DNA of 64,000 nt from a virus: the IMG/VR virus record IMGVR_UViG_3300017917_001342, positions 62,001 through 126,000 of that record, one strand, 5' to 3'. The notes under the pieces are model-generated. The model saw only the letters and a list, made by a program, of their open reading frames with translations, was not told where the DNA came from and made no database searches. Positions 24,099 through 42,682 of this stretch are shown piece after piece. A program made the translations under genes and the position numbers. The first letter of the stretch is position 1. Each line of letters starts with the position of its first letter.

Positions 24099-24995
24099 AT
24101 TGAAATTTGTCTTTATATATGGAATTAGATATTCACTTGCAAAATGTTCGTGTGAATATCTAGATGGATGGCCTAACAATGCTCTACCATAGACATTGTT
24201 TTCTTTTGCGTGCAATAGAGAATGATTCATAGTATATGCAAATGTGTTGGCATTAAAAAAGTCTTGCAAATCTTTTACTATACTTGGATAGTATATGTTG
24301 TCTCCAATTTTTTGTATAGCTCGTTCTATAGTGTCGTCTAAAACCCAATCATCTAACAGTTTACGGTTCAGTTCAGGATTTTCTCTGTATATGTTTACAG
24401 GGTCAATGATAATATGAGGCACATCCTTAAGGATCTGTTTTATTGCAATGATGTGATTTTTTACATGCAGGTATTTGGTCAGCACATCATCACCATACAT
24501 ATCAGACAACTCTATATACTGTTTGTGCAATTTACTTTTGTTATGTGGTGCATAATTGTTATGCGTTCTAATCTTGTCGTGCCCTGTTTGTTCATTTAAT
24601 TTTGTAGTCCTATATGGAAAAGTAAGACCTACTATAACCAATGTGTCTGACGATATGTCATTTTTATGTAATATAAGTTCTGACATTATTGCATCGTTAC
24701 TGTATCCAGCCCACGCATAATTTTTGTAACTACTAAATTTAAAATGCCTTGAAATAATACCAGATATGCAGTAGCTATGGCAACGTTCTTCATAGTCTGC
24801 TGTTTGCATCTCAATGTCCCATAGTGCGTCAAAATGTGAACCTTTTAAAAGTTCAACTGGCACTGCACCAGAAATTTTATCTCTAGGTAAATCTTTAACT
24901 ATATGTTCTATTCTATGTTTTAAATCAGCATCGTCTTGTGGTAATTCAGTGCCGTACATATAACTGTCGCCAAATGTCAATAGCTTAGTAATCAT
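24093..24995 (-). CDS. SGNH/GDSL-type hydrolase
   Basis: A 300-residue protein. The catalytic-serine block is LTFGDSYMYGTE at residues 6-17. A glycine/asparagine block is NYAWAGYSNDAIMSE, and the C-terminal His block is HPSRYSHEHFA. These match SGNH esterases, which remove or add acyl groups on sugars. It ends convergently with the preceding gene (6-nt overlap) and starts inside the radical SAM gene, so it is part of that run. Confidence 0.7.
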   Translation of the reverse strand: MITKLLTFGDSYMYGTELPQDDADLKHRIEHIVKDLPRDKISGAVPVELLKGSHFDALWDIEMQTADYEERCHSYCISGIISRHFKFSSYKNYAWAGYSNDAIMSELILHKNDISSDTLVIVGLTFPYRTTKLNEQTGHDKIRTHNNYAPHNKSKLHKQYIELSDMYGDDVLTKYLHVKNHIIAIKQILKDVPHIIIDPVNIYRENPELNRKLLDDWVLDDTIERAIQKIGDNIYYPSIVKDLQDFFNANTFAYTMNHSLLHAKENNVYGRALLGHPSRYSHEHFASEYLIPYIKTNFNL

Positions 24996-26115
24996 TTAGA
25001 AACTCTTTTAATTTTGGAAATGTTGCAGTGTAATCGGTTTTTCTAATGCTATCTAACGCAGTCAGATAATCTTTCATTTTACGTGCAAGCTGTTCGCTGT
25101 CGTCTGCTGTATCATATTGCATTATAGTGTCAAGTGTTACGCCGTTGAATTTAACACCTGTACAATCAATTGCAGACAGATATTCGTGTAATTGGTCTTT
25201 TGGTAATATATTAAATTTCAAAAAATCTGGCGATACTAATAGATTCAAATGTAAAAACAAATCATGGTCTTTAGAAAATTTTACAGCATCACCGATATTA
25301 AAAACGCTCATTGCATTTACTGTGTAAGTTAATGACAATGATACACTAGACGGTTTGTTACGAATTACATATTGCAAATTATCCATTACAGAATCGAAAT
25401 TTGCAGGGAATCGCTGGTATTCAAATTCTTCTTTAACTAAACTGTCTATACTCCAATTTAAACCTACATACTTAAATTTAGAATACGTATCTAATAATTC
25501 GTCTGTGATTTTAACTGTTCCGTTAGTATTAGTTCTTATCTTTTGATTTTTGCTTGTGCCAATATCAACGCAAAAGTTTAATATATCGTAATGATATTTG
25601 ATTAATAACGGTTCGCCGCCGTAGAATTCTAATAGTTCTACTTCCTGTATATAGGGTTTAATAGTGTTGAATACATCGACATTGTGTATCCATTTATATT
25701 TTGATGTATTGAATTTATAGCCATTCAATTTTTCAAAATCTGAATACCACATACTACTATTACCGGGAGCACACATAACACACTTTAAATTACAAACGTT
25801 GTTAAATTTAATGTCTAAACTGCGAGGTGTTGATTTTACTAATAGTCCTCGATCATCTTGTTCAAACAAACGCTTACTGTAGCCATTGTTGGCTTCTACT
25901 TCCCAGCAGTGATTACAACTTGGTATATTATAGCTGTCAACATCATTTGCATGACGTATACGGTCAGTTGAATTCCATACAGATTCTGGGGTATCTGTTG
26001 CAATATTATATTCGGTGCCGTCATCTTTTACATAGACATGTGTACTGAGACAGCAAGGCGCAAATGTGCCATCATTTCGTATTTCTAAATTAGTATGAGG
26101 CATGATGCAGCGCAT
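24985..26115 (-). CDS. Radical SAM protein 1 (twitch/SPASM-like N-terminus)
   Basis: A 376-residue protein. The 4Fe-4S/SAM motif is CNLKCVMC at about residue 110 (CxxxCxxC). The N-terminus has extra cysteines (CIMPHTN, CCLS, and CNHCWEVE), as in radical SAM proteins with an auxiliary cluster domain. EFYGGEPLLIK is the GGEP SAM-binding motif. Substrate unknown. The start overlaps the upstream gene's stop, so the run is coupled. Confidence 0.88.
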   Translation of the reverse strand: MRCIMPHTNLEIRNDGTFAPCCLSTHVYVKDDGTEYNIATDTPESVWNSTDRIRHANDVDSYNIPSCNHCWEVEANNGYSKRLFEQDDRGLLVKSTPRSLDIKFNNVCNLKCVMCAPGNSSMWYSDFEKLNGYKFNTSKYKWIHNVDVFNTIKPYIQEVELLEFYGGEPLLIKYHYDILNFCVDIGTSKNQKIRTNTNGTVKITDELLDTYSKFKYVGLNWSIDSLVKEEFEYQRFPANFDSVMDNLQYVIRNKPSSVSLSLTYTVNAMSVFNIGDAVKFSKDHDLFLHLNLLVSPDFLKFNILPKDQLHEYLSAIDCTGVKFNGVTLDTIMQYDTADDSEQLARKMKDYLTALDSIRKTDYTATFPKLKEFLNDY

Positions 26116-27587
26116 TATTGTTCAGCTTCTCTTTTTGTATTGTAATAATGCAACAGCTCGCGTTCCATGTAACTCATATAGGCTTCTTCGTTGAATGTTT
26201 TCCAATTCAATCGTTTACATTCTTCACTCATACGCTGTCGTCGACGAAAAATTTCTGGGAAGTCTAACGTGCTGATGTGTTTACTTTTCCAAAACGTGCC
26301 AACATCGTTTACTACTAACTCGTCTTTTTGATCTGCAAAATCTGTTCCCGGTAAAAATGCAATATAGTGTTGCAAATTCAATGATGCAATCGTACCGTCA
26401 TCACTTGCCCATTTGTAATCATGTAGAAACTTGATGTTTTCTTCGAAATCTTCTTCGGTTTCTAATGGGTGGCCAAACAGCACGTTGAACATTACAAAAA
26501 TACGACTTTTACTTAGATTATGAATAGTATCACGCAGAGCTTCATTATCAAACCCTTTTCTCATAATTTTACGCATACGTTCACTTGCATGTTCGAGTCC
26601 AATGCCCACGTTTTCTAAACCGGCTTCTGCTGCTCGCATATAATCATCTAGTGACATCTGACTGTTTGATCGTGCTATGAACTGGCCGCCCCATCTAAAT
26701 TTCACACCGTTGCGACTTTGATAATCTAACAGCACATCGACTAGTTCTCTAAATGCTTTCATGCTGCCATTGATTAAACTGTCACTTAGATAAAATGTGT
26801 CAACACCTTTCTGCTCATAGTGATATATCATTTCCATTGCAATGTGTTCACCGCCACGAGTTTTAAATTTGGGCCATAGTCTGTACACATCGCAGAAATC
26901 GCAGCGTCTAACGCAACCGCGACTACCAGTTAATATATAAGTCGGCTTGCCAGAATCATATTTTTCAAACGGATATAACTTGTGATCACATTCTTCGTAA
27001 TTTGCAAATGCTAGACCTTCTAGGTTTTGTATTTGTCTATTTGCTCGATTGATGCCTACAGCAGTTGGGTTGTTTTTGCAGATTAATTCAACTACTGCTA
27101 CTTCACCTTCACCTGTTATGTAGTAGTCAATTAATCCGTCGTCTAGCAGTTTTTTAGCAAACTCGAATGATGTATCTCCCAATGCATCGCCTAGTCCTGC
27201 GCCACCTATTAGTATCTTTTTATCGGGCCAATTTGCTCTAATGAATTTGATAATATCTACACCAACTCTTCTACTGTTGAGACTGAAAATGCTTATACCG
27301 ATCCATGTTGGATTGTGTTTTGTAATATAGTCGTTGAAAATTTCTTTAAGACGATGAATTACTTTGTCATACAATTCCTGCATGGGATCATAGGTATGCC
27401 AGTGCAACATATATACGATGTCGTCCCAGTGTTCCTTAAACGAGTTGTATATCAGTATATTGGTATCAACTGCTGCACAGGTTACAGTGCCACTGGCTTC
27501 TATTTGACCTTTTAAATGGTAAATGGCCGGTGCCGGCCATTTGATTTCCATAAGAGGTATTGCAAATAATATTACGTCTTTTTTCAT
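26115..27587 (-). CDS. B12-binding-type radical SAM protein
   Basis: A 490-residue protein with two domains. The N-terminal 170 residues form a Rossmann-like cobalamin-binding domain (WIGISIFSLNSRR, KILIGGAG, YYITGEGEVAVVEL). A radical SAM domain follows with SRGCVRRCDFCDVY at about 225. Class B methyltransferases and ring-forming enzymes share this build. It differs from its nine neighbours. A role in methylation of a sugar, peptide or lipid is possible. Confidence 0.88.
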   Translation of the reverse strand: MKKDVILFAIPLMEIKWPAPAIYHLKGQIEASGTVTCAAVDTNILIYNSFKEHWDDIVYMLHWHTYDPMQELYDKVIHRLKEIFNDYITKHNPTWIGISIFSLNSRRVGVDIIKFIRANWPDKKILIGGAGLGDALGDTSFEFAKKLLDDGLIDYYITGEGEVAVVELICKNNPTAVGINRANRQIQNLEGLAFANYEECDHKLYPFEKYDSGKPTYILTGSRGCVRRCDFCDVYRLWPKFKTRGGEHIAMEMIYHYEQKGVDTFYLSDSLINGSMKAFRELVDVLLDYQSRNGVKFRWGGQFIARSNSQMSLDDYMRAAEAGLENVGIGLEHASERMRKIMRKGFDNEALRDTIHNLSKSRIFVMFNVLFGHPLETEEDFEENIKFLHDYKWASDDGTIASLNLQHYIAFLPGTDFADQKDELVVNDVGTFWKSKHISTLDFPEIFRRRQRMSEECKRLNWKTFNEEAYMSYMERELLHYYNTKREAEQ

Positions 27588-27590
27588 ATG

Positions 27591-28841
27591 TCATATTACT
27601 TTTTTATAGTGATCAATCAGTTCAGGGAATGTATCAGCAAAACTTTCGGATCTAATCCTATCTAGTGAATCTGTCATAAAAATAAATTTGTCATGTATTT
27701 CTTTTAGTTCTTCTGCACTTCTATCTTTACCAGTGTACATATAAGAAATTATTCCGTCGTAATAGAATTTTAGTTTTTCACGAGTTTCGACACAGTCAAA
27801 TGTATTTAAATGATTAGAAAACTTTTCTTTTACCCTAGCTTTGTAATCGTCATTTAGTGTATTGATATGATACCATTTTGGATCGGTTAATACATTACCA
27901 AGATGCATATTATGTATTTTCATCCCGCAGGAGAATAGATAGTCTAAAAAGTCTGGCAAATGTAAGATATTAAACACCTGTATAGTCGGACTAACATTAA
28001 ATTGTACGTTTGGACTTTTTATCAACAGATGAATGTTTTTATCAATTACATTCCACTTGGTACCTTTTCTAATGTATTCTGCACGACTGCCCATGCCATC
28101 TAGACTTGCCATTACCTGCACTAAATGAAAATTCTTCCATAGATCTACATTGTTCCAATGCTTGTATTTGATTTTCAATAGATTGGTGTTATAACGCAGC
28201 TTGACGTCGAATCGTTTCTTCTCTATTAACTTTTCAAGTATGTAATAGTGTTCGTCCATTATCAGCGGTTCGCCACCGGCAAAATAGATTTCTTCTACAT
28301 TGTCTATCTGATCGTCTAGAATTTTATACATGTCTTCGATACTGTGGTCTTTGGTATTGACTACAGGGACTTTTTCACTTGTTGCACCGTATAGTTCTTT
28401 TTCGTCGTTGAACCACAAACTGCTGAGATGACCACCGCACATTCTGCATTTCATGTTACAGAGGTTGCTAAATCTAAAATCCCAGTATCGCAGTTTCATT
28501 TCATCCAATGAACCATCTGGATTGGTCTTTTTAACAGACTCTTCTATATGATGTTCAAATGTCCAGTTGGCATTGTGCCTAAAACTAACAATGTCATTGT
28601 CTTCTTGTTCGAAACATTTAGTGCAGAGTTTTGGCTTTTCACCATTTAGAAACTGCAATCGTAGATTTTTCATGTGTTCGCTATTCCATAGTTCGAATAG
28701 CGTATTGTCTTTGAGATTGCCGATTGATGATTTGTAATTTGTAATACAGCATTGATAAACATTGCCATTTGGCCAAGTGTTTAAATGTATCCACGGTATA
28801 ATACAAAATGTCGGTGTTGGTATTTTATCAGTTTTGTTCAT
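27591..28841 (-). CDS. Radical SAM protein 3 (CCxx/CxxCxxxE type)
   Basis: A 416-residue protein. The N-terminal auxiliary cysteine region is FCIIPWIHLNTWPNG, CC, and LCTKCFEQE. The core is CNMKCRMC at about 133, followed by YFAGGEPLIM. It is close in layout to proteins at 34177 and 37628, its likely paralogues. It overlaps the upstream gene by 14 nt. Confidence 0.88.
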   Translation of the reverse strand: MNKTDKIPTPTFCIIPWIHLNTWPNGNVYQCCITNYKSSIGNLKDNTLFELWNSEHMKNLRLQFLNGEKPKLCTKCFEQEDNDIVSFRHNANWTFEHHIEESVKKTNPDGSLDEMKLRYWDFRFSNLCNMKCRMCGGHLSSLWFNDEKELYGATSEKVPVVNTKDHSIEDMYKILDDQIDNVEEIYFAGGEPLIMDEHYYILEKLIEKKRFDVKLRYNTNLLKIKYKHWNNVDLWKNFHLVQVMASLDGMGSRAEYIRKGTKWNVIDKNIHLLIKSPNVQFNVSPTIQVFNILHLPDFLDYLFSCGMKIHNMHLGNVLTDPKWYHINTLNDDYKARVKEKFSNHLNTFDCVETREKLKFYYDGIISYMYTGKDRSAEELKEIHDKFIFMTDSLDRIRSESFADTFPELIDHYKKVI

Positions 28842-30183
28842 TTATTGTATTCCACCATTGACTGAATTCTTCGTTATTAACAGCATTTACTATATTTAAA
28901 TTTCTACGAGATGCATAGCTTTTAAAGAAATTAACAAAGTCGTTAACTTTGTCTTGATATTGATCAACATCTTCGTAACTTTTGTCTACACTACGCAAAT
29001 AAGAAACTACTCTCATAAATTGATCTAATTCGCTGGGACTTAAAAATCCTTTTCTCGTAGCTAACCAATCATCGAACTTAGTTACCAATGCTTGTTTAAT
29101 GCTCGGTGGTAATATATTAACACTTTGAAAACTTGGGAATCTTAAAATGTTAAGAGACATACTGTACAATCCGGGTGGACTATTAGCTTCTCGTCTTAGA
29201 TCTATTATGTCATCCATGAATTCAGTAATACCAAATACAGACAACGCACTGATGGTCATCATTATGGTTATGCGACGATATTTGGCATTTGCTGTAAACA
29301 GTTTAAGATTGCGTTTCCATTGTTCATAGTCTAAACCATGACGTACAAACTCTGCCAATTCTCCGGTTGCTTCACAGCTTGTATACAGATCAAAATTTTC
29401 AAACTTGTTTGTGCAGTCTATTAGATTTTGCAATCTTTGATTGTCCATGATTAGGTTAGAGTTAACTGCAAATCTAAACTTTTCACCTTGACACTTTTCA
29501 ACTAATTTCCAAAAGTCTGGGCTTCTTGTAGGTTCGCCTCCGGTGACACGAAGTTCTTGAAGATTGTACTTCAAACTGTCATCAAACCACTTAAAAAAGC
29601 TTTTCACAAAAAAGTTGTTGTCGGACTTTGGGTCAAACGCATATGCATGACTTCCGTCATTTTGATAGGTTTGACCGCCGCCTGTGTTCATGTTTTCATA
29701 AATGCCATTTGTTTTAATGTCATTTGACCATGTGCTAGAAAATTCCGGATTGCAATATGTACAACTGAGATTACATAGGTTATCAAAACTGATTTCTAAA
29801 GTCTTGGGATCTACGTTTTCTTGCCAGTTGAGTGTTTTTAGATAATTGATTTCTTCTTCTGTGTAAATTGCACTTTTGTATGTGCGATCACTGTTTACAT
29901 TACTGTCAGCATCTTCAACACGCCAGCAGTAGCTACATTCTTCAGGACGCTTGCCTTCTAGCATTAGTCTGCGCTGTTCTTTTTTGAACTCTGTATTGTG
30001 TAATGCAGTTGGATTTTTGAATAGTTCTCCAGGCGGTACATAATGTGCAGCAGGGTGGTGGCAACTAGCCGTGCGACCATTGCTTAGCCATATAGTTGCG
30101 TTGTACCATTTTGCTGCACAGAAACTTGGACTTATTGAGTTTATGTGTGTTTTTACATTATCTAAATGTTTATTATTGCTCAT
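28828..30183 (-). CDS. Radical SAM protein 4 (CHHP subfamily)
   Basis: A 451-residue protein. The N-terminal block SPSFCAAKWYNATIWLSNG is followed by CHHP and CSYCWRVED. The core is CNLSCTYCNPEFSSTW at about 137, with RVTGGEPTRS. With the proteins at 30173 and 38833 it forms a subfamily marked by CHHP or CYHP and YCWxxE, and a C-terminal FFKSYxxRRNLN end. The insertion around residues 160-185 is glycine/asparagine-rich. Confidence 0.88.
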   Translation of the reverse strand: MSNNKHLDNVKTHINSISPSFCAAKWYNATIWLSNGRTASCHHPAAHYVPPGELFKNPTALHNTEFKKEQRRLMLEGKRPEECSYCWRVEDADSNVNSDRTYKSAIYTEEEINYLKTLNWQENVDPKTLEISFDNLCNLSCTYCNPEFSSTWSNDIKTNGIYENMNTGGGQTYQNDGSHAYAFDPKSDNNFFVKSFFKWFDDSLKYNLQELRVTGGEPTRSPDFWKLVEKCQGEKFRFAVNSNLIMDNQRLQNLIDCTNKFENFDLYTSCEATGELAEFVRHGLDYEQWKRNLKLFTANAKYRRITIMMTISALSVFGITEFMDDIIDLRREANSPPGLYSMSLNILRFPSFQSVNILPPSIKQALVTKFDDWLATRKGFLSPSELDQFMRVVSYLRSVDKSYEDVDQYQDKVNDFVNFFKSYASRRNLNIVNAVNNEEFSQWWNTINEQN

Positions 30184-31594
30184 TTATTTTGGCCTGTTCG
30201 CAGATATCGTAGAATCGTTTTAGATTTGGAAATGTGGAATGAAAATCTGTGTTTCGACGCTTGTCGTATTCGTCGACAAACTTCTTAAAATTGTAACGGT
30301 TTTCGTTGACATCGCCTACAGTGTCTTCGTTCATAAATTTTATAAAGCGTTCAATCTGATTGATTTCATCTTCCCATAGTATGTCAGTTGTGTCTATCAC
30401 ACCAACACGATGATTAACCATTATGTCTGTTAGACTGTTTTTTACTTCTAGTTTAGTTTCTTCATCTAAGTTGGTTACTGCTAATTTTTGAGGCCATCGC
30501 AGATAGTTTGTCATACATGGTAGTACATTGCCTTGTGTCATAGAATTAGTAATGTACTTTTTTCTTAATTTAAGTACATCATGTAAAAACAAGTTAAATG
30601 TGCCAACACTGAAAATATTAACAGTGGTCATAAAACCAAAGACCAAATTGAATTTGTTGAACAACGCTGTTAAAATTTTATCGCAGTTTTTATACCATCT
30701 GTCATAGTTCAATCCGTATCTGGTATATTCTGCTTGCGCACCAGTTGCTTCACCGCTTGTGAAGATCTGCACTTCTTTGATGTTGGGACCTATTTTACTA
30801 AGAACACGTATAAGACGATCAATCATATCATCTTGCACATCTAGGTTTGTATTGATTGCCAGCGTGAGATTTTCTCTAGGATTTTTAGCTATAGCATCAA
30901 GTACTTTCCAACAGTCTTTACTCATCAGTGGCTCACCACCTGTTAATCGTATAGTGTGTAAATTGTTATACAATTCAGGCCACCATTGCCAAAATGCATC
31001 TACATAGGGATTTTTCTCTCTATGTGGAATAGGCATCTTACCAGTTTCTTTTAAAGTGTCAAAATTGTTGTACAACGTAGTTGTTGGATAAGGACCATGC
31101 TTTTTGATTTCGTCATACCATTTGCTGCTTAGGTCCGGACTGCAATACGCACATTTCAAATTGCATACGTTACTGAATGAAATTTCCATGTATGTGGGAT
31201 TGATATCTTTTGTGCCTGTTTCTAACACATCAAACAGGTGAGGTTTACTCCATGTTACTTTGCTTTTGTAGACTCTGTCACTGAAATAGTCATCACCCAT
31301 GTCTTCTACACGCCAGCAGTAATCACACTCTGCTGGACGTTTACCATCTAACATCATTTGCATTTGCTGTTTTTTATGACTTGTGTTATGCAATGCTTTG
31401 AAATTGTTAGCAATTTCGTCAACTGGTATTTTATGAGTAGGTGGGTGATGACAACTATGGTTCATACCATTCTGTAGATAAATGGTATGCTGTAACCATT
31501 TAGCCAAACAAAAACTTGGACTTATACTGTTTAACTGGTCACGTTCTCTACGCAATTCGTCAATCTGTGATTGTTTTGTCATGTGATATACCAT
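30173..31594 (-). CDS. Radical SAM protein 5 (CHHP subfamily)
   Basis: A 473-residue protein. SPSFCLAKWLQHTIYLQNG, CHHP and CDYCWRVED are in the N-terminal auxiliary region. The core is CNLKCAYCSPDLSSKWYDEI, and the SAM motif is RLTGGEPLMS. The start at 31594 overlaps the dehydrogenase stop (TAATG). It is a close paralogue of the next gene downstream and of the protein at 38833. Confidence 0.88.
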   Translation of the reverse strand: MVYHMTKQSQIDELRRERDQLNSISPSFCLAKWLQHTIYLQNGMNHSCHHPPTHKIPVDEIANNFKALHNTSHKKQQMQMMLDGKRPAECDYCWRVEDMGDDYFSDRVYKSKVTWSKPHLFDVLETGTKDINPTYMEISFSNVCNLKCAYCSPDLSSKWYDEIKKHGPYPTTTLYNNFDTLKETGKMPIPHREKNPYVDAFWQWWPELYNNLHTIRLTGGEPLMSKDCWKVLDAIAKNPRENLTLAINTNLDVQDDMIDRLIRVLSKIGPNIKEVQIFTSGEATGAQAEYTRYGLNYDRWYKNCDKILTALFNKFNLVFGFMTTVNIFSVGTFNLFLHDVLKLRKKYITNSMTQGNVLPCMTNYLRWPQKLAVTNLDEETKLEVKNSLTDIMVNHRVGVIDTTDILWEDEINQIERFIKFMNEDTVGDVNENRYNFKKFVDEYDKRRNTDFHSTFPNLKRFYDICEQAKINEQ

Positions 31595-32766
31595 TAAAAT
31601 GCTGTGTTAGTGCGACGAGTATTACCGTAATGAATTACTTTAACGGCACCTGATTTTGATATTGCAGTTCGCCATGGATCTATTACAACACTGCCATTTG
31701 CCATTGCAGTTAGATCATAGTCAACGTTGTGACCTAGCAGATACACTGCTGGTACAGCTAATGCCGTGTCATAGCTAGGTGTTGAGCCCAGTTGGTCACA
31801 GTAATATCCAACCAACATACCATAGCTACCATCTGTATATGGTACGCCTGGTTTGAAGCTTTTACCTAGTATTACAATAGGTAACTGATGCTTATGCAAC
31901 TCGACTGCTAGGTTTTTAGCTTGAACTTCTCTAGCAGTCATTATTGCATCAAACAAATCATAACCAAGATCTAAACGTTCTGCTAACCATCGCAATGCAA
32001 TATTGTCTCGTGGATGGCATGGTCCGCCGTCGCCCATGCCAGGTTTCATATATGCCGGTCCCATGATGCGATAGGTGCTGTCCGACAGCGCAGTTGCTAC
32101 TATATCAACATTCATATTGCCAATACGTTCGGCTACATCTTGAATCATATTAACAAGACTTAATTTTGCAGATATAAAAGTGTTGTAGAATATTTTGATA
32201 CTTTCGACTTCTTCCCAAGTACCTGTGATAATTCTTGGATTATTTTGCATCAATGGAGCATAGAGATTTTTCAATGCTGTAACAGCATTGGTATTTGCTC
32301 CCGTGCTGTTACCTATCATTATCATTTCTGGGTTCACCATATCAGATGCAACCGATCCCATTGCTATGAGATATGGATTGTAAATCAATTCGCCCTGAGT
32401 AATCAGGTTTGCTAGTTCTCGTCTAGTTGTACCAGGTAACACTGTGCTTATTAATACTATGATATGAGATGCAGTTGCAACACTGTTAATTTGCTGCAAC
32501 ACAGCTTTTACATAGGAATAATCAAAGTCTTTGTTATCCAAGTGACTGCTAGGTGTGCTGCCATCATATTTTGGATCATGCGGTGTTTGCACAGCTATAA
32601 AAACAATGTCACTGTTTTTCACAGTGTCCTGTACACTATCTACTATGTTAACGGTGTTGCTTTTTACAGCAGGATTTACATCGTAGCCGTATACCGTGTA
32701 GTGTGTAGCCATTGCTTCTGCAACAGGTAACCCAAGTTTACCCAGGCCGATCATTCCTATTTTCAT
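31594..32766 (-). CDS. UDP-glucose/GDP-mannose dehydrogenase family protein
   Basis: A 390-residue protein. The NAD-binding N-terminus is MKIGMIGLGKLGLPVAEAMA. Then come VFIAVQTPHD, STVLPGTTRREL and GGPCHPRDN, where the catalytic cysteine of the family sits (GxCxxKD usually). ILGKSFKPGVPYTDGS follows. The family oxidises NDP-hexoses to uronic acids. The change of K-D to R-D after the cysteine is unusual, so the substrate may differ. It sits in the radical SAM run and is probably part of the same pathway. Confidence 0.82.
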   Translation of the reverse strand: MKIGMIGLGKLGLPVAEAMATHYTVYGYDVNPAVKSNTVNIVDSVQDTVKNSDIVFIAVQTPHDPKYDGSTPSSHLDNKDFDYSYVKAVLQQINSVATASHIIVLISTVLPGTTRRELANLITQGELIYNPYLIAMGSVASDMVNPEMIMIGNSTGANTNAVTALKNLYAPLMQNNPRIITGTWEEVESIKIFYNTFISAKLSLVNMIQDVAERIGNMNVDIVATALSDSTYRIMGPAYMKPGMGDGGPCHPRDNIALRWLAERLDLGYDLFDAIMTAREVQAKNLAVELHKHQLPIVILGKSFKPGVPYTDGSYGMLVGYYCDQLGSTPSYDTALAVPAVYLLGHNVDYDLTAMANGSVVIDPWRTAISKSGAVKVIHYGNTRRTNTAF

Positions 32767-32804
32767 CAGTAAAACTCCGTTTCAACATTGTACTAGTTGT
32801 TGTA

Positions 32805-32915
32805 TTATTTGTATATAAACGGATCGCGTTTTCTAAGTTCTGCTAACCTTTTTTTGAGTTTCTTCTTATCCAAGTACCATTTAACTAGTCGTAGCTTTTT
32901 GAACCAATTTAACAT
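32805..32915 (-). CDS. Small very basic peptide, 36 aa
   Basis: MLNWFKKLRLVKWYLD begins a lysine/arginine-rich amphipathic peptide ending RDPFIYK. GGAG lies 8 nt upstream of the ATG and the start overlaps the upstream stop by 7 nt. That indicates coupled translation. It lies between the dehydrogenase and the SEK-motif gene. It could bind membrane or nucleic acid; function unknown. Confidence 0.5.
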   Translation of the reverse strand: MLNWFKKLRLVKWYLDKKKLKKRLAELRKRDPFIYK

Positions 32916-34180
32916 GTTGTGTCTCCGTTGTAAATTTTCATAAACTGTGAATATGCAGGTGTTTTAAACCAGTTTCTACTTAAAAACCATTGTTGGTTGT
33001 GCATACATATTTCTTTTACCTGTTCTAACCAACTCCATTTATCTCGTACAAACGATAAATTTTGCAAGTTACTTAATATAATAGCAACCCTATCTGCAAA
33101 TGGCGCAGTGTCATAACTTTCGTCGAATACAGAGTCAAATGTTTCAAACCCCCAGGACTTTAATTTTGCAAGTGTACCTTGATGACCTAATACCATGAAT
33201 GGTTGTTGCGCCCACAGGGGTTTCCATAGTTTTTCGCTAATGAACAAGTTGTAAGGCTCATCAAATGCATGAGTTTCTGTAATAACACTTGCCCAGCTTT
33301 TTAAATAAATGCTGCGATTAATTTGCATTGCTTTGTTATTGTTAAAATCAGAATCATCTATTACAAGCGGCAATACAGTTTTAGCTTTATCAACTACTTC
33401 TTGTGGTACACCATGTGCAGTCCAATTGTCGTAAACCAATGTGTTATGGCTTATCATCCCTTTTAAATGAAGGTCGTGTTCTATTAAACGCATTACCATA
33501 ACTTCTCTGTGATGGCGGCTTACTCTGTTTAGACAATTAAACAGTTTGACATTGTAGTTGTTTGATTTTGAAACTTTATGATCGTTCCATTCTACTGCGT
33601 TGCTTCTACGTAAATTCAATTGTTGCATATACATTAAATGTGGAAACCCTATTATGCTTATGCGATCATTGATTTTATGAATATCACACCATTGTTTATA
33701 ACCATCAGCATCTAATTCGTTACCAGTTAGAAACAAAAAACTTTTTGGCGGAATATGGTGTTCTGCACACAGCTTATGAAAATATTCATACAGTTTTGTA
33801 TCGTAGAATCCTTCGTTAAGGTTGTCAACTACTAATAGTGCTTTACCAGTCTTGGCATCATCTAACACGGCCGATGGTATGAAATTGACAAATGGTTCGT
33901 AACCATAGCTGTTACCGGGCCAACCAGTCCAGTAGTCTGCATCATTCCATGTGCCTATATTATACGCATATCTATCTGGTCTATTTTCCACACCGCTGTG
34001 GCACCAATTGTGATTATCTCGATTCCACCAATTTAATCGCCAATAGTGAAACATATTAGCAACGGGAAATCTACCAGACGACAACTCCCATCTTGGCCCG
34101 TGAGTTGTGTGCGGACATGCAGTCATTGTTCTGAATCTTTTTGGGTCATCAAAAACCCAATGTACATTGTCGGTGTTCAT
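32909..34180 (-). CDS. Glycosyltransferase-like protein (SEK motif family)
   Basis: A 423-residue paralogue of the proteins at 16198 and 22863. It carries LFISEKLWKPLWAQQPFMVL and LKSWGFETFDSVFDESYD in the C-terminal third, and LFNCLNRVSRHHREVMVMRL in the middle. It overlaps its upstream radical SAM gene by 4 nt. It is likely to transfer a sugar onto the same product as the enzymes around it. Confidence 0.6.
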   Translation of the reverse strand: MNTDNVHWVFDDPKRFRTMTACPHTTHGPRWELSSGRFPVANMFHYWRLNWWNRDNHNWCHSGVENRPDRYAYNIGTWNDADYWTGWPGNSYGYEPFVNFIPSAVLDDAKTGKALLVVDNLNEGFYDTKLYEYFHKLCAEHHIPPKSFLFLTGNELDADGYKQWCDIHKINDRISIIGFPHLMYMQQLNLRRSNAVEWNDHKVSKSNNYNVKLFNCLNRVSRHHREVMVMRLIEHDLHLKGMISHNTLVYDNWTAHGVPQEVVDKAKTVLPLVIDDSDFNNNKAMQINRSIYLKSWASVITETHAFDEPYNLFISEKLWKPLWAQQPFMVLGHQGTLAKLKSWGFETFDSVFDESYDTAPFADRVAIILSNLQNLSFVRDKWSWLEQVKEICMHNQQWFLSRNWFKTPAYSQFMKIYNGDTTC

Positions 34181-35412
34181 GGTTTCAGCTTTGCCAAACG
34201 TGGTAGGTAATCTTGTATGTTGCGGTTCTTTAGTTTATCAACCTGTTCAACATCATACCAAAATTGGGCCCAAGAATCAGTTGGCCAGTTGTCAAATTCA
34301 TACTCTGCTCCCTGTGTAGCAGGACTGTCCATATAATTTAATGCACCTACCCAACTGTTGTAGTTTTGGTATTGTTCTAAACCTGCTATTGCAGCTTCAA
34401 CGTCTCTGCGTATTTCGTTTTTAGCATGCTGCGGCAACAATCTTACATCTTGATATGTAGGATGATAGACTAGATTTACAAATGGTAACGATGAAAAATA
34501 CGGCTGTTGAATTGTCCAGTTGATCAGTTCAGCAACATTGTAACAGTTGTACAACCCAAATGTTGTATGCAGTTCTAATTTTATGTTAGGTGCATCTAAT
34601 GCAGCAATGCGTATAAGGTTGCTGTAAATTGTGTTCCAGTCGCTGTTTTGGCGTATGTAGTCATTTGCTTCACCAATGGCTTCTATGCTGACATTTATGT
34701 TAACATGTGCAAATGATTGCCACATGTTCAGCAGTTCCTGTGGAAGAGTAGTGAGATTGGTGTTGTAGCTTATCTGCTGTTTGTTTGATAATTTTTGATC
34801 TATACACTCTCGCAGAATATCCATATGTTGTTTAACAATAAGTGGCTCGCCGCCAAGGAAGTTCATGTGTGTTACATGCTTCAAACTGTTTTTGATTACA
34901 GAGATTGCATGTGGATCTTCGAACCACAGTTGTCTTACACTGCGAGGATCTGCATTGATAGTTTTCCATCTGTCTAGTTTGCTAAGATCGTGCATCCATA
35001 GATGACTGTTCATCCAGTTGCACATTCTACAGACTAGATTGCACTTGTTACCAAATGTAATATCCAAGTATTCTATTGTTGCATCAGACAACAATGTACC
35101 ATCGGTATCTATGCTACCTGGTACACTGTTTTTGTATACGTCATTCCATATCTGTCGAAAACTTGTACCACCGCTGTCTTCTATCTTCCAACACTTGCTG
35201 CATGTTGGATGTCTTTGGCCTTTTGCTATAGCAAGTCTAACTTCTTTATGTAATTTGCTGTTTAAAACGTCAAGCGGTTCGTTGCTTTCTGTGATAAAAG
35301 GTTGACTGTAATCTTCCCAATGTCCGTGATTATTACAACACAGCCTCGGTCGTCCAGGGCCATCTAAACTAAGACTGTTGTAAGGCAATATGCAAAACGC
35401 ATCATTGGTCAT
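34177..35412 (-). CDS. Radical SAM protein 6
   Basis: A 411-residue protein. The start MTNDAFCILPYN at 35412 was chosen for the ATGA overlap with the upstream stop and AAGG 9 nt upstream; an in-frame ATG 45 nt upstream exists. The auxiliary cysteines are FCILPYN, RLCCNN and CSKCWKIED. The core is CNLVCRMCNWMNSHLW at about 130, and NFLGGEPLIV is the SAM motif. Confidence 0.87.
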   Translation of the reverse strand: MTNDAFCILPYNSLSLDGPGRPRLCCNNHGHWEDYSQPFITESNEPLDVLNSKLHKEVRLAIAKGQRHPTCSKCWKIEDSGGTSFRQIWNDVYKNSVPGSIDTDGTLLSDATIEYLDITFGNKCNLVCRMCNWMNSHLWMHDLSKLDRWKTINADPRSVRQLWFEDPHAISVIKNSLKHVTHMNFLGGEPLIVKQHMDILRECIDQKLSNKQQISYNTNLTTLPQELLNMWQSFAHVNINVSIEAIGEANDYIRQNSDWNTIYSNLIRIAALDAPNIKLELHTTFGLYNCYNVAELINWTIQQPYFSSLPFVNLVYHPTYQDVRLLPQHAKNEIRRDVEAAIAGLEQYQNYNSWVGALNYMDSPATQGAEYEFDNWPTDSWAQFWYDVEQVDKLKNRNIQDYLPRLAKLKP

Positions 35413-36395
35413 GTCATACGCCTTTTGGTAATACTCATGTCTGTGCCACAGTGACAATGTGTTCTGGGACAGACAATTGTACCAGATCTGTTGCTTAGAT
35501 TTAAATGTGAGTCGTTGATATTACCTATAACACCAGAAACACCGCAACTGCCTAGCGTTATATCGCCATTGATTGCGATGTTTATGCTTGTGCCTATATC
35601 ACAGTGCCAGTCTAAGAAAAAGTTACGGCGTTCAGCAGTTAGTCTATTGCTGTTAACTGGTTGTGTTGTACCATCATCGTATCGTTCTATTACCATGCTG
35701 TGTCCAACACGATTATCTGGCTTTGGAAGAGATTGTTTAGATCTATTGCTATTTTGCATTAACCATTCGATCTTGCTTTTGTCTTTGTAATCATAGGGAT
35801 CTGCGTTAACACTCATTTCGTCTAGTATCGGTACATACTCCATAGTGACATTTTGCATTGCTGCCCATATAACATCTGCTTTGTCAAGCATTTGATCCCA
35901 ATGGTCCTCAGCCATCATCATTCTCACAGCAAGATAATTTACTTTGTCCTGAAGAAACACAGCATTTTCTAAGAACCGATCATGCTTTACCCATCCAGGA
36001 TGATAGCTTGCAACCACATCGTCAAATAAATGATAGTTGTGTTCCCACCAGTGCAATGGTCTAGACAGGTTAGTGTTGATTGCAACAGTTACTTTGCCTG
36101 GCAGTAGAGCCGAAACATAGTTGCAAACGTCTACTAGTATTGGCCAATGTGTGGGTTCACCTCCACTTAAAAATAGTTTTACTTTGTCATAGTGTTGACC
36201 TGTAAATCCGTTTAACAGTTTGTCCAGGTTACGCTTATATACTTCTATATTTAGATTTGGTATATCCCCGCCCCAGTTACCAGGGTTGCAATAGCCGCAG
36301 CGGAAATTGCAGGTATTACTGGTTTGCCAAGTTATGTTTAGCGTTTTACCGTTTAAGGCTTCTATAGCAATTAGGTTTTTATTGTCTAGCAGCAT
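35409..36395 (-). CDS. Radical SAM protein 7 (short, C-terminal cysteine cluster)
   Basis: A 328-residue protein with a different build. The core CNFRCGYCNPGNWGGDIP is near the N-terminus (about 28) and the extra cysteines are C-terminal (WHCDIGTS, GSCGVSG, and CPRTHCHCGTD), like SPASM-type tails. FLSGGEPTHW is the SAM motif. It may do a different step from the N-cluster enzymes around it. Confidence 0.87.
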   Translation of the reverse strand: MLLDNKNLIAIEALNGKTLNITWQTSNTCNFRCGYCNPGNWGGDIPNLNIEVYKRNLDKLLNGFTGQHYDKVKLFLSGGEPTHWPILVDVCNYVSALLPGKVTVAINTNLSRPLHWWEHNYHLFDDVVASYHPGWVKHDRFLENAVFLQDKVNYLAVRMMMAEDHWDQMLDKADVIWAAMQNVTMEYVPILDEMSVNADPYDYKDKSKIEWLMQNSNRSKQSLPKPDNRVGHSMVIERYDDGTTQPVNSNRLTAERRNFFLDWHCDIGTSINIAINGDITLGSCGVSGVIGNINDSHLNLSNRSGTIVCPRTHCHCGTDMSITKRRMT

Positions 36396-37638
36396 TTTGT
36401 AACTGATCTATTAAGTTTGGCCATATAACAGTATGATCTAAATTACGTAATTTGTCATTAACTAATAGCCAATCAACTAGTCTTGATTGCAGTTCAGTAT
36501 TGGTTGGATTTTTAAGCATCGCAGTTTTCATGTAGTCTACACCGTCGTGAAAATTACACAGCGTTCCACGTGGTATAGGTCTCAGTGTATTACGTAGTTT
36601 TTTCATTGCATCCTGACGCAGTTCAATTGGAATAACATCTACGCTGAGATATTGTGGATAGTCTAATATGATAGGATACCAAATTATGTTTTTAACGTAG
36701 TCTTCGGCAAGATAAACAAGCCATTGAATCAATGAATCTATACGATCGTAGTTTAATGCATTTACAACAGTATAGACCTTTAATGTTTTAGCTACATTAT
36801 GTTTTAGATACTGTGTAAAATTATGTGTTTTAGTTTGCCATTTAGTTGGATATCTGATATATTCGTCAACTTCATTTAAACCATCTATACTTATCTGTAT
36901 TTCAGTGTTGCTAAATTGTGCAAGACGATGTAGCAGTTTGTAATTCCAAACAGTGCAATTGGTAGTGAAACTAACGTGGCAAGAGTCATTGCCAGCATCT
37001 AACAGCATATCCAAGTATTGATAGATATTTGTGTCCATAGTTGGCTCACCACCAGTTATGTACAAACGCTTCAATGTTGGTGCTAGTTTTTTAAAGTTTT
37101 CTTTGCTAGATTCGTCCACAATATAGTTTGTGTTGACAAACTCAGTGCTGAGTTCGTTACGCCATGCATCTAACAACCATTGTGGTAACTCAGCAGACGC
37201 TACAGCTTCTGCTCGTTCTTCTGCAATTTTACTGCTGCTGCCACTCCAACAACCAACACATTTCAAGTTACAAGTTGTGCTTAGTCTCAAATCAAAACTG
37301 TTTGGTAACACTGTTGCCACAGTGCTTAGATCTAACATTTGGTCTATGTTATAGTCTCGATTAGCATGTGTTCTCGGACTGGGATTGCCTGCAGATTCAA
37401 TATCGTAACAGATTTTACAGTCATCTACAGGTTCACTATTGAGCATACGTCTACGCACATTTTGCATGTATGTGCCATTCCAGATGTCTTCAATCGGCTG
37501 CTTATTCCACAATACAGGTTTGTTATCGGCATCTTTGATCACAATGTTGTCGCTGATATTGCAACAGAGTTTGCATTGCCCTTGCGGTGTAGTATTGATG
37601 TTATGCCATGCTAATGCGCACAAGCTATTAGATTGCAT
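36379..37638 (-). CDS. Radical SAM protein 8
   Basis: A 419-residue protein. The N-terminal cysteines are LCALAWHN, CKLCCNI and CKICYDIES. The core is CNLKCVGCWSGSSSKI at about 117, and YITGGEPTMD is the SAM motif. It is a diverged member of the CC-type group, overlapping both neighbours by 11-17 nt. Confidence 0.87.
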   Translation of the reverse strand: MQSNSLCALAWHNINTTPQGQCKLCCNISDNIVIKDADNKPVLWNKQPIEDIWNGTYMQNVRRRMLNSEPVDDCKICYDIESAGNPSPRTHANRDYNIDQMLDLSTVATVLPNSFDLRLSTTCNLKCVGCWSGSSSKIAEERAEAVASAELPQWLLDAWRNELSTEFVNTNYIVDESSKENFKKLAPTLKRLYITGGEPTMDTNIYQYLDMLLDAGNDSCHVSFTTNCTVWNYKLLHRLAQFSNTEIQISIDGLNEVDEYIRYPTKWQTKTHNFTQYLKHNVAKTLKVYTVVNALNYDRIDSLIQWLVYLAEDYVKNIIWYPIILDYPQYLSVDVIPIELRQDAMKKLRNTLRPIPRGTLCNFHDGVDYMKTAMLKNPTNTELQSRLVDWLLVNDKLRNLDHTVIWPNLIDQLQNAARQ

Positions 37639-38851
37639 GATCTATACCTCTGAGTTCAGGAAACACATCTCTCCAACTTTCTTTGCGTATCTTGTCTAGT
37701 TTTGCAGTTTGGTGTGCCCATAATGGTAATAGGTCACTGTCATCGCTTTCATTCATAAATGAAACAATACCTTTAAATGCAGATACTGTATTGGAATTTG
37801 CATGGTTTTCTGTTAGCCATTCACAGTGTTTTTCAATTTTATCTGTAATTCGTTGTTTTATAGAAACAGGCAAAATTCTAGTACTGAAGTATTTTGGACT
37901 GGTTAGTTGATTAATTCTAATATTGTCAATATCCACATAGTCGTGCTGTACCCAGTCTTTGTGAAAGTCAGATAAGTGTTTGGCATTCCACATGCTTACG
38001 GTAGGTGTTATTTCAAAATACGCATTGGGCAATTCCTGCATCATGCGTTTTCTATTATTAACAACGTCTTTCCAAATCATGTTTTTACGAATGTATTCGC
38101 CGCGGTCGCCCATACCATCTAAACTAGCTGCGACTCGCAAATTTGGAAACTGTCTCCACAACTCAAAGAGATTACGTTGCTTGTAATCTAACTTTGTAAA
38201 ATTTGTAGTGTAGTTCAATTGTACGTCTGTTTTACCTATGCTTATCCAATAGTCTAATATGCGATAATGTTCATCTGTCATTAGACTTTCGCCGCCTGCA
38301 AAGTACACTTCTTCGGTATTTTGCAAATGCGGTAACAGTTGTTCCCAAAAATCGCCTGATTGATTTATGTTTAAAATTCTAGGCGATTTATAACTTGCAT
38401 CCATCATTAGTGAATCATCATACCAACTGCTGCTCAATTGTGGTCCGCAGGTTCTACAACGCAAATTGCATATGTTACTAAAACGAACATCCAGATAAAC
38501 CAAATTGACTTTTTCAACTGTGCCGTCCATTTGAGTAGTGTTTACTAAATTGCTGTGATGTGCATAGGCTTCGTTGGCATGATTTCTCAGGGTAAATGTG
38601 CCGTGCCGCTCAACATCGTAACATCTACTGCATGCAGGAGTTTCTTTACCTTCTAACATATTTTTACGCAGCTCTCGCATGCGTTCGCTGTTCCAAATTT
38701 CGTTTAAACGCTGTTGGTTGGTATTGCCAACAGTCCAATTGGTATCACTCATACAGCAGGGAAACACATCACCATTTGGCCACATATGCATGTGTACCCA
38801 TGGCATCATGCAAAATACTTTATTGTCGGGTATCATATCAATTTTCCGCAT
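37628..38851 (-). CDS. Radical SAM protein 9
   Basis: A 407-residue protein. VFCMMPWVHMHMWPNG, CCMSD and CSRCYDVE are in the auxiliary region. The core is CNLRCRTCGPQLSSSWYDD at about 131, and YFAGGESLMT replaces the usual GGEP with GGES. It is most like radical SAM protein 3. It overlaps the next gene upstream by 19 nt. Confidence 0.87.
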   Translation of the reverse strand: MRKIDMIPDNKVFCMMPWVHMHMWPNGDVFPCCMSDTNWTVGNTNQQRLNEIWNSERMRELRKNMLEGKETPACSRCYDVERHGTFTLRNHANEAYAHHSNLVNTTQMDGTVEKVNLVYLDVRFSNICNLRCRTCGPQLSSSWYDDSLMMDASYKSPRILNINQSGDFWEQLLPHLQNTEEVYFAGGESLMTDEHYRILDYWISIGKTDVQLNYTTNFTKLDYKQRNLFELWRQFPNLRVAASLDGMGDRGEYIRKNMIWKDVVNNRKRMMQELPNAYFEITPTVSMWNAKHLSDFHKDWVQHDYVDIDNIRINQLTSPKYFSTRILPVSIKQRITDKIEKHCEWLTENHANSNTVSAFKGIVSFMNESDDSDLLPLWAHQTAKLDKIRKESWRDVFPELRGIDHAI

Positions 38852-40212
38852 TCGTTATAGAACTCAATTAGTTCTGGGAATGTCTTTACAAAATCAGTGG
38901 CCCTACGACGGTCGTGTTCGTTGAACCATGCGTAAAAGTCTCTGCGTCCTGTATACAATTTATCATTGTCGTAGTGTGTGGTTTCCATGTAGTGTACAAC
39001 ACGCCTAAACTTGTCTACTTCTAAACTACCAAAGAGATTCTTATCTAAATCATCTTCGTTTACTTCCATAAACTCTAGACATTCTTTGAGATAAGGTAGA
39101 AACTGTTCTTTTGGCAATAGATTTATGTCATACTGCAATGGTTCTCTTAGATACGGTGTGTCGAATCGCACGTTGCGCATAGTGCGTCTTTCACCAGATG
39201 GCTTTGGTGCAAAACGTTTACGCCATTCCAACATTTTGATCAACAGCAATTTAAAGTTGGGAACACTGAGTATGTTATAGGTCATCATCATACTAACTGA
39301 TTGTCCACTCAGTGTCATGTAAGTATCTAGGTTTTTCTCCCATTGACCAAGATCAAGCCCGGTTCGTATGTACTCGGCCTGCGGTCCCCAAGTGTCAATA
39401 CTGGTGAACAGTGTAAAATCTTTAATACACTTGTTGTCTATAAGTTCTCGTATCTTAGTAGCAAGGCGGTTGACAAGTATCGGCTTAACGCCTAAGTTGC
39501 TGTTTATGTTAAGTTCCAGTTTTGGCATAGGGTTAGCAGCGAGGTCGTCAAGCAATGTCCAGGTACTTTTATGTAGCAGTGGTTCGCCGCCAGTTATGCG
39601 CAGTATGTTTACACTGTCTCGCACAGTTGGCCACCATCGCCACCACGCATCTACAAATGGGTTATCAGCTTCTTCATAGATTTTTAACCAATCTATATCA
39701 CATTTGTGATTCACAACCATGTCATACGGACCGTGATCGCGTATTTCATTATAGAATTTGCTAGATGCTTTGGGATGGCAGTATCCGCATTTGAAATTGC
39801 ATTCATTGCCGAAACTGACTTCTATGTATTCTGGCGCTACTGGAAAATCTGCACCCTTGGCTTTGATTTCATCATATCGGTCTTGTCTAAAAATACTGCT
39901 GTTACGTATATGTCTATCGCTTATTAAATCTCTGTTGAGATTTTCAATGTTCCAGCAGTATTGGCATCCACTAGGCTGTCGACCATTTAACAATGCTCGT
40001 CGTTCTGCTTTTTTGTGTTCAGTATTGTGTAATGCACTGGGATCCCAACCTATACGCTTTTCGTCTATCTTATGCGGAGCAGGATGATAACAGCTATGTG
40101 TTTCACCAGTTTGAAGATATATAGTTGTATGATGCCATTTAGCCATACAAAATGTAGGACTAATAGCATCCATCAACGGTCTGAGTTCATCTATTTTTTT
40201 ACGATCTACCAT
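38833..40212 (-). CDS. Radical SAM protein 10 (CYHP subfamily), first of the run
   Basis: A 459-residue protein. SPTFCMAKWHHTTIYLQTG, CYHP and CQYCWNIEN are in the N-terminal region. The core is CNFKCGYCHPKASSKFYNEI, and RITGGEPLLH is the SAM motif. It is the promoter-proximal gene of a minus-strand run to 24093. The genes overlap or lie within a few bases of each other, except for about 40-nt and 60-nt gaps. Confidence 0.87.
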   Translation of the reverse strand: MVDRKKIDELRPLMDAISPTFCMAKWHHTTIYLQTGETHSCYHPAPHKIDEKRIGWDPSALHNTEHKKAERRALLNGRQPSGCQYCWNIENLNRDLISDRHIRNSSIFRQDRYDEIKAKGADFPVAPEYIEVSFGNECNFKCGYCHPKASSKFYNEIRDHGPYDMVVNHKCDIDWLKIYEEADNPFVDAWWRWWPTVRDSVNILRITGGEPLLHKSTWTLLDDLAANPMPKLELNINSNLGVKPILVNRLATKIRELIDNKCIKDFTLFTSIDTWGPQAEYIRTGLDLGQWEKNLDTYMTLSGQSVSMMMTYNILSVPNFKLLLIKMLEWRKRFAPKPSGERRTMRNVRFDTPYLREPLQYDINLLPKEQFLPYLKECLEFMEVNEDDLDKNLFGSLEVDKFRRVVHYMETTHYDNDKLYTGRRDFYAWFNEHDRRRATDFVKTFPELIEFYNECGKLI

Positions 40213-40504: not shown

Positions 40505-40533
40505 TTGACAGTACCGTAAAGGTATGTTAATGT
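40505..40533 (+). promoter_or_regulatory. Early promoter for sigma factor
   Basis: TTGACA (40505-40510), 17-nt spacer, TAATGT (40528-40533). The position rules out the ATGs at 40524 and 40530 as starts of the sigma gene. Confidence 0.55.
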
Positions 40534-40574
40534 GTCTTCGGCTATATCTCTCACCAACAATGGAGCAACGTTAC

Positions 40575-42033: not shown

Positions 42034-42062
42034 AAAAAAGCCCTGCATTGCAGGGCTTTTTT
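42034..42062. terminator. Bidirectional Rho-independent terminator
   Basis: AAAAAAGCCCTGC with GCAGGGCTTTTTT forms a strong hairpin between the convergent sigma and superoxide dismutase genes. Confidence 0.9.
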
Positions 42063-42600: not shown

Positions 42601-42605
42601 AACAA

Positions 42606-42611: not shown

Positions 42612-42682
42612 TAAACAAAATTTGGCATTATGCAAAGTCATCTAACATAATGATTGCAATGCAATATTTTGGAGACCCTTGC

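Follow-up and report, generated by a model that had tools for sequence, protein, structure and literature searches.

The ten radical SAM (rSAM) genes at 24985-40212 of the window (the whole 64,000-nucleotide stretch of viral DNA analysed) probably encode a pathway in which sugars are edited for a glycan on a surface or on the virion; one phage cassette would be present here in two diverged copies. This reading draws on gene content, intact motifs, orthologous classes, gene order, purifying selection, glycan-related neighbours, a GT-B model of the 'SEK' protein and a BtrN-type twitch domain. A preliminary description had reported ten rSAM enzymes in one orientation, mostly overlapping, and this is borne out: all ten open reading frames are on the minus strand, most overlap or abut, and each protein hits Radical_SAM (PF04055) with an E-value between 4.8e-16 and 1.2e-4; when scanned as proteins six of them clear the Pfam cut-off, and in the genome search nine do.

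The virus record is 518,643 bases long, is T4-like and contains at least 23 rSAM genes. It has a match to the gp23-type major capsid protein (PF07068, E 3.5e-93; 405127-406071 of the record) and one to the tail sheath C-terminal domain (E 1.1e-16), and the gp23-type capsid match places the virus with T4-like myoviruses. Elsewhere in the record there are three tandem rSAM duplicates (49-55%), and another rSAM cluster is adjoined by genes that by eye are thymidylate-synthase-like and DHFR-like. The motif TATAAATA, which we take to be the T4 late-promoter motif, occurs 6 times in the window with 6.3 expected and is thus uninformative here.

Eight of the ten proteins pass the curated cut-off (170 bits) of NF033640, the NCBIfam 'twitch domain-containing radical SAM protein' (N_Twi_rSAM), with 266-411 bits, and are members of a family whose name states no reaction. 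The two that miss it, 26115-27587 and 35409-36395, are a B12-binding rSAM and an rSAM with C-terminal cysteines whose nearest family, well below its cut-off, is STM4011-like. The N_Twi, B12-binding and C-terminal-cysteine types are thus real, as first proposed, while the 'CC' and 'CHHP' proteins are variants of one N-terminal twitch.

Nearest-virus and class matches divide what had been described as a single array of ten into two related tandem cassettes, A being closest to locus L013 and B to L084. Cassette A contains, from right to left, a class P1 N_Twi gene (38833..40212; NF033640 302.7 bits; 88% to L013; class P1 368.9 bits), a class P3 gene (37628..38851; 406.7 bits; 80% to L013; class P3 455.6 bits), a P4-like gene (36379..37638; 280.7 bits; 68% to L013; closest to class P4, though with a mere 148 bits), the STM4011-like gene (35409..36395; NF038073 E 9.2e-13, with 48 bits where the cut-off is 200; 77% to L013) and a second P4-like gene (34177..35457; NF033640 312.8 bits; 71% to L013; best class P4, 175 bits). 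Cassette B contains a class P1 gene (30173..31594; NF033640 335.9 bits; 81% to L084; class P1 380.4 bits), a class P2 gene (28828..30183; 298.4 bits; 77% to L084; class P2 413.8 bits), a class P3 gene (27591..28841; 411.4 bits; 79% to L084; class P3 411.3 bits; model pLDDT 87.5), the B12-binding gene (26115..27587; PF04055 E 4.8e-16; PF02310 E 1.2e-5, below cut-off; 84% to L084) and a P4-like gene (24985..26115; NF033640 266.5 bits; 55% to L084; class P4 166 bits). The closest pair of N_Twi proteins in the window is about 38% identical.

Between the cassettes are a glycosyltransferase whose model has the GT-B fold and a UDP-glucose dehydrogenase, in agreement with the interleaved SEK-motif protein and nucleotide-sugar dehydrogenase noticed earlier. 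They are the SEK protein (32909..34180, minus strand; model pLDDT 80.7) and the dehydrogenase (31594..32766, minus strand; PF03721 E 8.9e-19, phrog_9148 E 4.2e-93), with a 36-aa mini-protein ending in RKRDPFIYK (32805..32915, minus strand) separating them. To the left of cassette B are an SGNH-like hydrolase (24093..24995, minus strand), for which a GDS motif is visible by eye although Pfam and PHROGs give no SGNH match, a second SEK family gene (22863..24098, plus strand) and the expected carbamoyltransferase, which is NodU/Nol-like (21318..22811, minus strand; PF16861 E 6e-52, phrog_1601 E 2.6e-100). The SEK, dehydrogenase and carbamoyltransferase genes constitute a glycosyltransferase with sugar-nucleotide enzymes in one gene run, the pattern of a glycan cassette. 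A scan of island genes revealed no recognisable flippase, polymerase or ligase, which counts against the glycan reading.

The CxxxCxxC motif, a GGE motif and four N-terminal cysteines are invariant in all 16 aligned NF033640-type proteins of the record (8 from the window and 8 from the rest), and the N-terminal auxiliary cysteines and CxxxCxxC are likewise invariant in 49/49 rows of a P3-type alignment. Lost clusters, which would have spoken against the array as first read, were looked for and none was found among the 16, so no family member looks inactivated. The P3-type profile aligns the twitch domain of BtrN (E 2.6e-5) with all four cysteines in register (C169, C187, C232 and C235, counted in the alignment); the match is weaker with a profile of all 16 record members (E 5.8e-4). 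BtrN is a cyclitol dehydrogenase that acts on 2-deoxy-scyllo-inosamine. The likeness is a four-cysteine twitch domain and the match spans the twitch only, whereas the domain order differs: in BtrN the twitch follows the rSAM core, and in the N_Twi proteins it precedes it (profile positions 7-80, with core matches from about residue 118). By analogy with this shared twitch, the N_Twi enzymes may also work like BtrN. In the structure comparison of the N_Twi model, which barely covers residues 1-90, the best match of the core is BlsE (Z 12.8), which acts on a sugar acid, and the sugar enzyme DesII gives Z 11.0; anSME (Z 12.1) and SkfB (Z 11.9), which act on peptides or proteins, tie with BlsE within 1 Z.

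Several gene families around N_Twi enzymes in other viruses favour a glycan role. In 43 viral loci, from among the 55 that remained once loci with identical N_Twi sequences had been removed, 34/40 SEK genes have an N_Twi gene no more than 1.5 kb away (16.6 expected on shuffling within loci), as do 36/56 members of the SGNH-like family (24.5 expected) and 20/30 of a ~306-aa family (12.1 expected), while carbamoyltransferase genes (5/20; 8.3 expected) and GT8-like genes (11/52; 21.0 expected) are no nearer than chance. Clustering places 32909-34180, 22863-24098 and proteins of the array contigs in one SEK family. The SEK model has a GT-B glycosyltransferase fold, with T4 beta-glucosyltransferase (VIA Z 13.8) and an alpha1,3-fucosyltransferase (Z 13.3) tying and other GT-B enzymes close behind. 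A PDB sequence search with profiles of the SEK, ~306-aa and ~362-aa families gave no match at E 0.1; for a ~273-aa family it returned weak hits to glycogenin (best E 0.0043). Around bacterial N_Twi genes, 87 same-strand neighbours, hand-picked from 157 without a control and excluding the phage-like layouts of L090, L094, L095, L100, L122, L150 and L154, include only 6 GT2, 4 GDSL and 2 carbamoyltransferase matches.

It is possible, though unlikely, that the enzymes instead modify amino-acid side chains directly on a phage or host protein, such as tail fibres or a small precursor, as SPASM/twitch enzymes of RiPP and sulfatase maturation do. The N-terminal domain of the N_Twi proteins is hit by SPASM (PF13186), and the structures most like the model include those of anSME, SkfB and sactipeptide enzymes; that many twitch/SPASM enzymes act on peptides counts against a sugar substrate. 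Virion or tail-fibre-like genes are found a few kb upstream in array contigs (about 4 kb in L069, from a family seen in 36 loci), and a tail-fibre gene in the window (52416-54845) is about 12 kb from the array. The 36-aa peptide gene of the island could likewise be a precursor. N_Twi domains also occur in fusions, with TPR domains in Elusimicrobia, which would equally suit a protein substrate, and in L150 with a second rSAM core resembling the STM4011-like 35409-36395. The recognised neighbours, however, are glycosyltransferases and sugar-nucleotide enzymes, and the small peptide gene noticed in the island tracks the carbamoyltransferase: among 49 loci of at least 8 kb found by the mini-protein motif, 47 have a carbamoyltransferase, 39 an SGNH-like gene and 26 N_Twi, although these loci are no independent sample because the motif itself came from rSAM loci (it is present in 29 viral loci selected for their rSAM genes).

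Two candidate substrates were considered in this connection. The mini-protein as an obligate rSAM substrate was rejected because its companion is the carbamoyltransferase, also in phage loci where N_Twi was not found. A conserved ~120-aa protein beside the arrays was dropped as a precursor, its alignment being without a leader/core pattern by eye.

Comparison of viral contigs reveals related arrays with a fixed order. Among dereplicated IMG/VR contigs, 26 have four or more of the five rSAM classes, and all 26 keep the order P1-P2-P3-P4-P5, 9 of them having themselves seeded the class models; cassette-A contigs (L014 to L024, L032, L038 and L074) have fewer than four classes each and are outside this count. 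In a quick tree of 111 proteins (15 from the record, the others from 15 viral loci and 5 genome loci) each class mostly keeps to its own clade whichever virus it comes from, so that grouping is largely by position and not by virus. All ten rSAM genes and SEK are under purifying selection (11/11 pairs; pN 0.09-0.29 and pS 0.70-0.90). Fixed order, a position-wise tree and purifying selection together favour a multi-step pathway over a diversifying paralogue set that varies a surface structure in escape from recognition by hosts or competitors. Such a set had also been proposed, and the two divergent cassettes with different nearest viruses and the tandem duplicates elsewhere in the record are in its favour, but pN far below pS, orthology largely by position and the distance between even the closest N_Twi pair make it very improbable. 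A phage DNA hypermodification pathway is scarcely credible: the SEK model does match T4 beta-glucosyltransferase best, and nucleotide-metabolism-like genes adjoin another rSAM cluster, but the fucosyltransferase ties with that enzyme and further GT-B enzymes are close, the scan of island genes revealed none recognisable as base-modifying, and all five classes also occur, reshuffled, on one Bacteriovoracaceae contig with chromosome-like flanks.

The earlier suggestion of stepwise building of one complex glycan or peptide is supported by context in its glycan half (ordered orthologous classes with glycosyltransferase and SGNH-like neighbours), and a peptide product is less likely. For this glycan pathway we infer the substrate class, reaction type, pathway logic, acceptor and role in infection as follows. 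The eight N_Twi enzymes would each abstract hydrogen from a sugar-like carbon with a 5'-deoxyadenosyl radical, the second electron going to the cysteine-ligated auxiliary cluster in BtrN fashion, giving dehydrogenation or epimerisation, and the B12-binding rSAM may add a methyl group or rearrange the carbon skeleton. UDP-glucose dehydrogenase would supply UDP-glucuronate, SEK and other glycosyltransferases would attach the product to an acceptor, and the SGNH-like and carbamoyltransferase products may trim it or add acyl or carbamoyl decorations. The acceptor would most likely be a host surface glycan, with superinfection exclusion or serotype conversion as the outcome, or the phage tail fibres.

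More tentatively, the arrays may represent an undescribed, widespread rSAM glycan pathway of T4-like phages, with 4-7 N_Twi enzymes in fixed order and five position-specific core steps, whose sugar, beyond ordinary nucleotide-sugar chemistry, would mark phage or host surfaces. Enzymes of the rSAM type perform chemistry beyond that of ordinary enzymes, and to our knowledge few from phages have known products. Five orthologous enzymes in fixed order make of phage genes without an assigned role a pathway open to reconstitution gene by gene, and if the product is a surface glycan it would partly explain the hypervariable islands for host recognition in aquatic T4-like phages.

Relatives in INPHARED are few. 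By tblastn the SEK protein has no match there, two N_Twi proteins match 2 and 8 records at 20-26% identity, all Vibrio phages except one marine virus (the Vibrio phages K566/K567 being hit at three places each), and the B12-binding rSAM matches 2 records of one Streptomyces phage. Record-level searches left out 23 of the 72 viral loci, mostly short contigs and near-duplicates. No description of an ordered N_Twi array was found in the literature searched, as judged by titles and the beginnings of abstracts.

Phages with many rSAM genes are already known in print (PMC5332604, PMC7029224), and by the same criterion of titles and abstract beginnings these are the only two papers with a bearing on the array. 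TARA_ERS488813_N000010, a T4-like genome of 183 kb with 12 rSAM genes (PMC5332604), contradicts the earlier statement that phages carry single rSAM genes. It is similar by description in having many rSAM genes in a single T4-like genome, but in the available portion of that paper these are counted as Fe-S proteins, without family, order or partners. The pelagimyophage host recognition cluster contains tail fibres, glycosyltransferases and LPS-related genes including UDP-glucose dehydrogenase, with added rSAM cassettes (PMC7029224). Both systems belong to T4-like aquatic phages and share the same mix of glycan-related genes and rSAM cassettes, whereas rSAM classes and order are not resolved in the available portion of that account, and the present virus has a much larger record with two cassettes.

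The minus strand from 24985 to 40212 is filled by ten radical SAM (rSAM) genes, mostly overlapping when read as ORFs, and the preliminary description of ten such genes in a single orientation is sound. Eight of the proteins score above the NF033640 threshold ('twitch domain-containing radical SAM protein'; here N_Twi, for the N-terminal twitch); the other two are B12-binding and STM4011-like, so named from below-cut-off matches, and with that proviso the three builds first described are all present. In an alignment of 16 NF033640-type proteins of the record (eight from the window), the CxxxCxxC and GGE motifs and the four cysteines near the N terminus never vary, so no loss of clusters is seen among them and the enzymes look intact.

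The window covers bases 62001–126000 of an IMG/VR record that is 518,643 bases long. The whole record has 22 PF04055 matches, and one further rSAM gene (record 454516–455922) appears both among the ORFs and among the N_Twi matches; the record therefore contains at least 23 rSAM genes, spread over five places. Its gp23 capsid gene, of T4 type, and its tail sheath domain mark it as a T4-like jumbo phage. Another stretch of the record (L009, 3730–7461) has three tandem N_Twi genes that are 49–55% identical, the closest paralogues among 23 rSAM proteins compared. A second rSAM island of five genes (L010, record bases 372001–391000) adjoins the tail sheath gene and includes QueC-like and Asn-synthase-like PP-loop genes as well as weak hydroxylase, nitroreductase and methyltransferase matches. 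Beside the window island are a sigma-70-type factor with regions 1.2 to 4 (40524–42029, plus strand) and an Fe/Mn superoxide dismutase (42061–42618, minus strand).

The ten genes are organized as two cassettes, each matching a different contig, rather than as the single array first described. Cassette A (34177–40212) contains, in transcription order and all on the minus strand, genes of classes P1 (38833) and P3 (37628), a P4-like gene (36379), the STM4011-like gene (35409) and a second P4-like gene (34177), where P1–P5 are five rSAM classes by array position. A putative glycosyltransferase with an SEK motif (32909–34180, minus strand), a 36-aa mini-protein and a UDP-glucose dehydrogenase follow in that order. 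Cassette B (24985–31594), also on the minus strand, contains P1 (30173), P2 (28828), P3 (27591), the B12 rSAM (26115) and a P4-like gene (24985) next to an SGNH-like gene. The P4-like genes are weakly assigned, with class-profile scores of 148–175 bits versus 369–456 for the P1–P3 genes, and no P5 was seen in the island with its class profile. The rSAM genes of cassette A are 68–88% identical to those of contig L013 and those of cassette B 55–84% identical to those of contig L084, with the same gene order in each. Within the window no N_Twi pair exceeds about 38% identity, so these are old paralogues.

Three window proteins were used to scan IMG/VR, which yielded 72 loci. In a tree of 111 proteins (quick method) the genes group largely by array position, not by virus. 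With one profile per class and loci with identical N_Twi sequences removed, four or five of the five classes are present in 31 of the 131 remaining viral and genome loci. Of these 31, the 26 from IMG/VR all show the order P1-P2-P3-P4-P5 (nine of the 26 supplied the profiles, and genes without a clear class were ignored in scoring). P4 and P5 are swapped in L094, L095 and L100, which are filed under bacterial MAGs with a phage-like layout; judged by array layout, these and L090, L122, L150 and L154 are probably misbinned phage contigs. A Bacteriovoracaceae contig (L101), with flanks that appear chromosome-like by eye, has all five classes in reshuffled order, and a short contig filed under a Flavobacterium MAG (L097) has four in another order. 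An Elusimicrobia MAG contig (L091) encodes six long N_Twi proteins in a row, with TPR-rich front parts (Pfam confirms the TPR in one of them). Of 50 virus records, made up of the one that holds the window and the records of 49 of the 72 loci, 45 show four or more N_Twi matches at E 0.001, which gives no prevalence because the records were chosen for array-gene matches; gp23 is present in 13 of the 50, many of which are fragments.

Pfam gives no match for the SEK protein, but its model (pLDDT 80.7) is that of a GT-B glycosyltransferase, resembling T4 beta-glucosyltransferase (Z 13.8) and alpha1,3-fucosyltransferase (Z 13.3). Across 43 viral loci, four families lie within 1.5 kb of N_Twi genes more closely than shuffles within loci predict: SEK (34/40), SGNH-like (36/56), and families of ~306 aa (20/30) and ~362 aa (24/24). 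Carbamoyltransferase (5/20) and GT8-like genes (11/52) are not nearer than in the shuffles. One SGNH-like member matches DUF6071 above and GDSL below cut-off, the ~306-aa family is GT-like by eye only, and a ~273-aa family has weak glycogenin matches. The ~362-aa family (L069 17508–18584 and 18 further aligned members) is strongly conserved and adjoins arrays; neither Pfam nor PHROG matches the one member scanned, and a PDB search with the family profile found nothing. A gene that lies about 4 kb upstream of the L069 array matches Peptidase_G2 as well as virion families, tail fibres among them; members of its family are present in 36 loci, the annotation being that of the L069 member. Of 87 same-strand neighbours in bacterial loci, six are GT2, four GDSL and two carbamoyltransferase, a modest signal without a control. 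The C-terminal part of one N_Twi protein (L123) is GT2-like by eye and not confirmed by Pfam. In L150, N_Twi is fused to a second rSAM core resembling the 35409 type, which suggests that the two kinds act together.

The mini-protein (32805–32915, minus strand) belongs to a 33–40 aa family ending RKRDPFIYK that recurs elsewhere (e.g. L013 15946–16050; L069 18587–18688), with this type of motif in 29 rSAM-chosen viral loci. Of 27 carbamoyltransferase genes in rSAM-chosen viral loci, 25 have its ORF no more than 1.5 kb upstream, as does one of five in genome-collection loci. The DNA pattern of its C-terminal end, scanned against IMG/VR, hit 82 loci (peptide recovered by ORF pattern in 75), of which 73 have carbamoyltransferase and 33 an N_Twi profile match, a sample biased in that the motif itself came from rSAM-chosen loci. 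Because of these counts and the 25/27 proximity, the putative partner of the mini-protein is the phage carbamoyltransferase, not the rSAM genes; mini-protein and carbamoyltransferase are ~10 kb apart in the window. For three members neither Pfam nor PHROG gives a convincing match, and a literature search for DPFIYK found no paper.

Structural matches of the rSAM core are led by BlsE (Z 12.8), followed by MoaA (11.7) and DesII (11.0) after two peptide or protein enzymes, anSME (12.1) and SkfB (11.9), and their substrates are mixed (sugar, peptide or protein, nucleotide). Sugar redox or epimerisation is the somewhat probable chemistry of the island N_Twi enzymes. That the rSAM enzymes modify protein directly is unlikely; in its favour, anSME and SkfB tie with BlsE. 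Diversification, also raised in the preliminary description, is spoken against by selection on eleven ortholog pairs (the ten rSAM genes and SEK, window against L013 or L084), which is purifying (pN 0.09–0.29; pS 0.70–0.90, saturated in 10 of 11, the single computable ratio being 0.18). Between a pathway and a DIVERSIFYING set, purifying selection, fixed order and positional orthology fit distinct, retained steps. Stepwise glycan building, as first suggested, is likely; the product itself remains a proposal, with host surface or tail fibre as its candidate acceptor.

Two papers describe 12 rSAM genes in a T4-like genome of 183 kb (PMC5332604) and a pelagimyophage host recognition cluster containing rSAM cassettes, the LPS-related genes of these phages including glycosyltransferases and UDP-glucose dehydrogenase (PMC7029224); to that extent both an abundance of rSAM genes in one phage and their proximity to glyco genes are already known. 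The fixed order, positional orthology and bacterial set were not found described in the open-licence PMC papers searched; what makes the island interesting is that its genes belong to an ordered set of orthologues, more than that there are ten of them. All four cysteines of the N-terminal twitch align with those of BtrN (E 2.6e-5), an enzyme that oxidises a cyclitol alcohol, its auxiliary cluster taking an electron. The twitch of BtrN lies after the rSAM core, whereas that of the island N_Twi enzymes lies before it.
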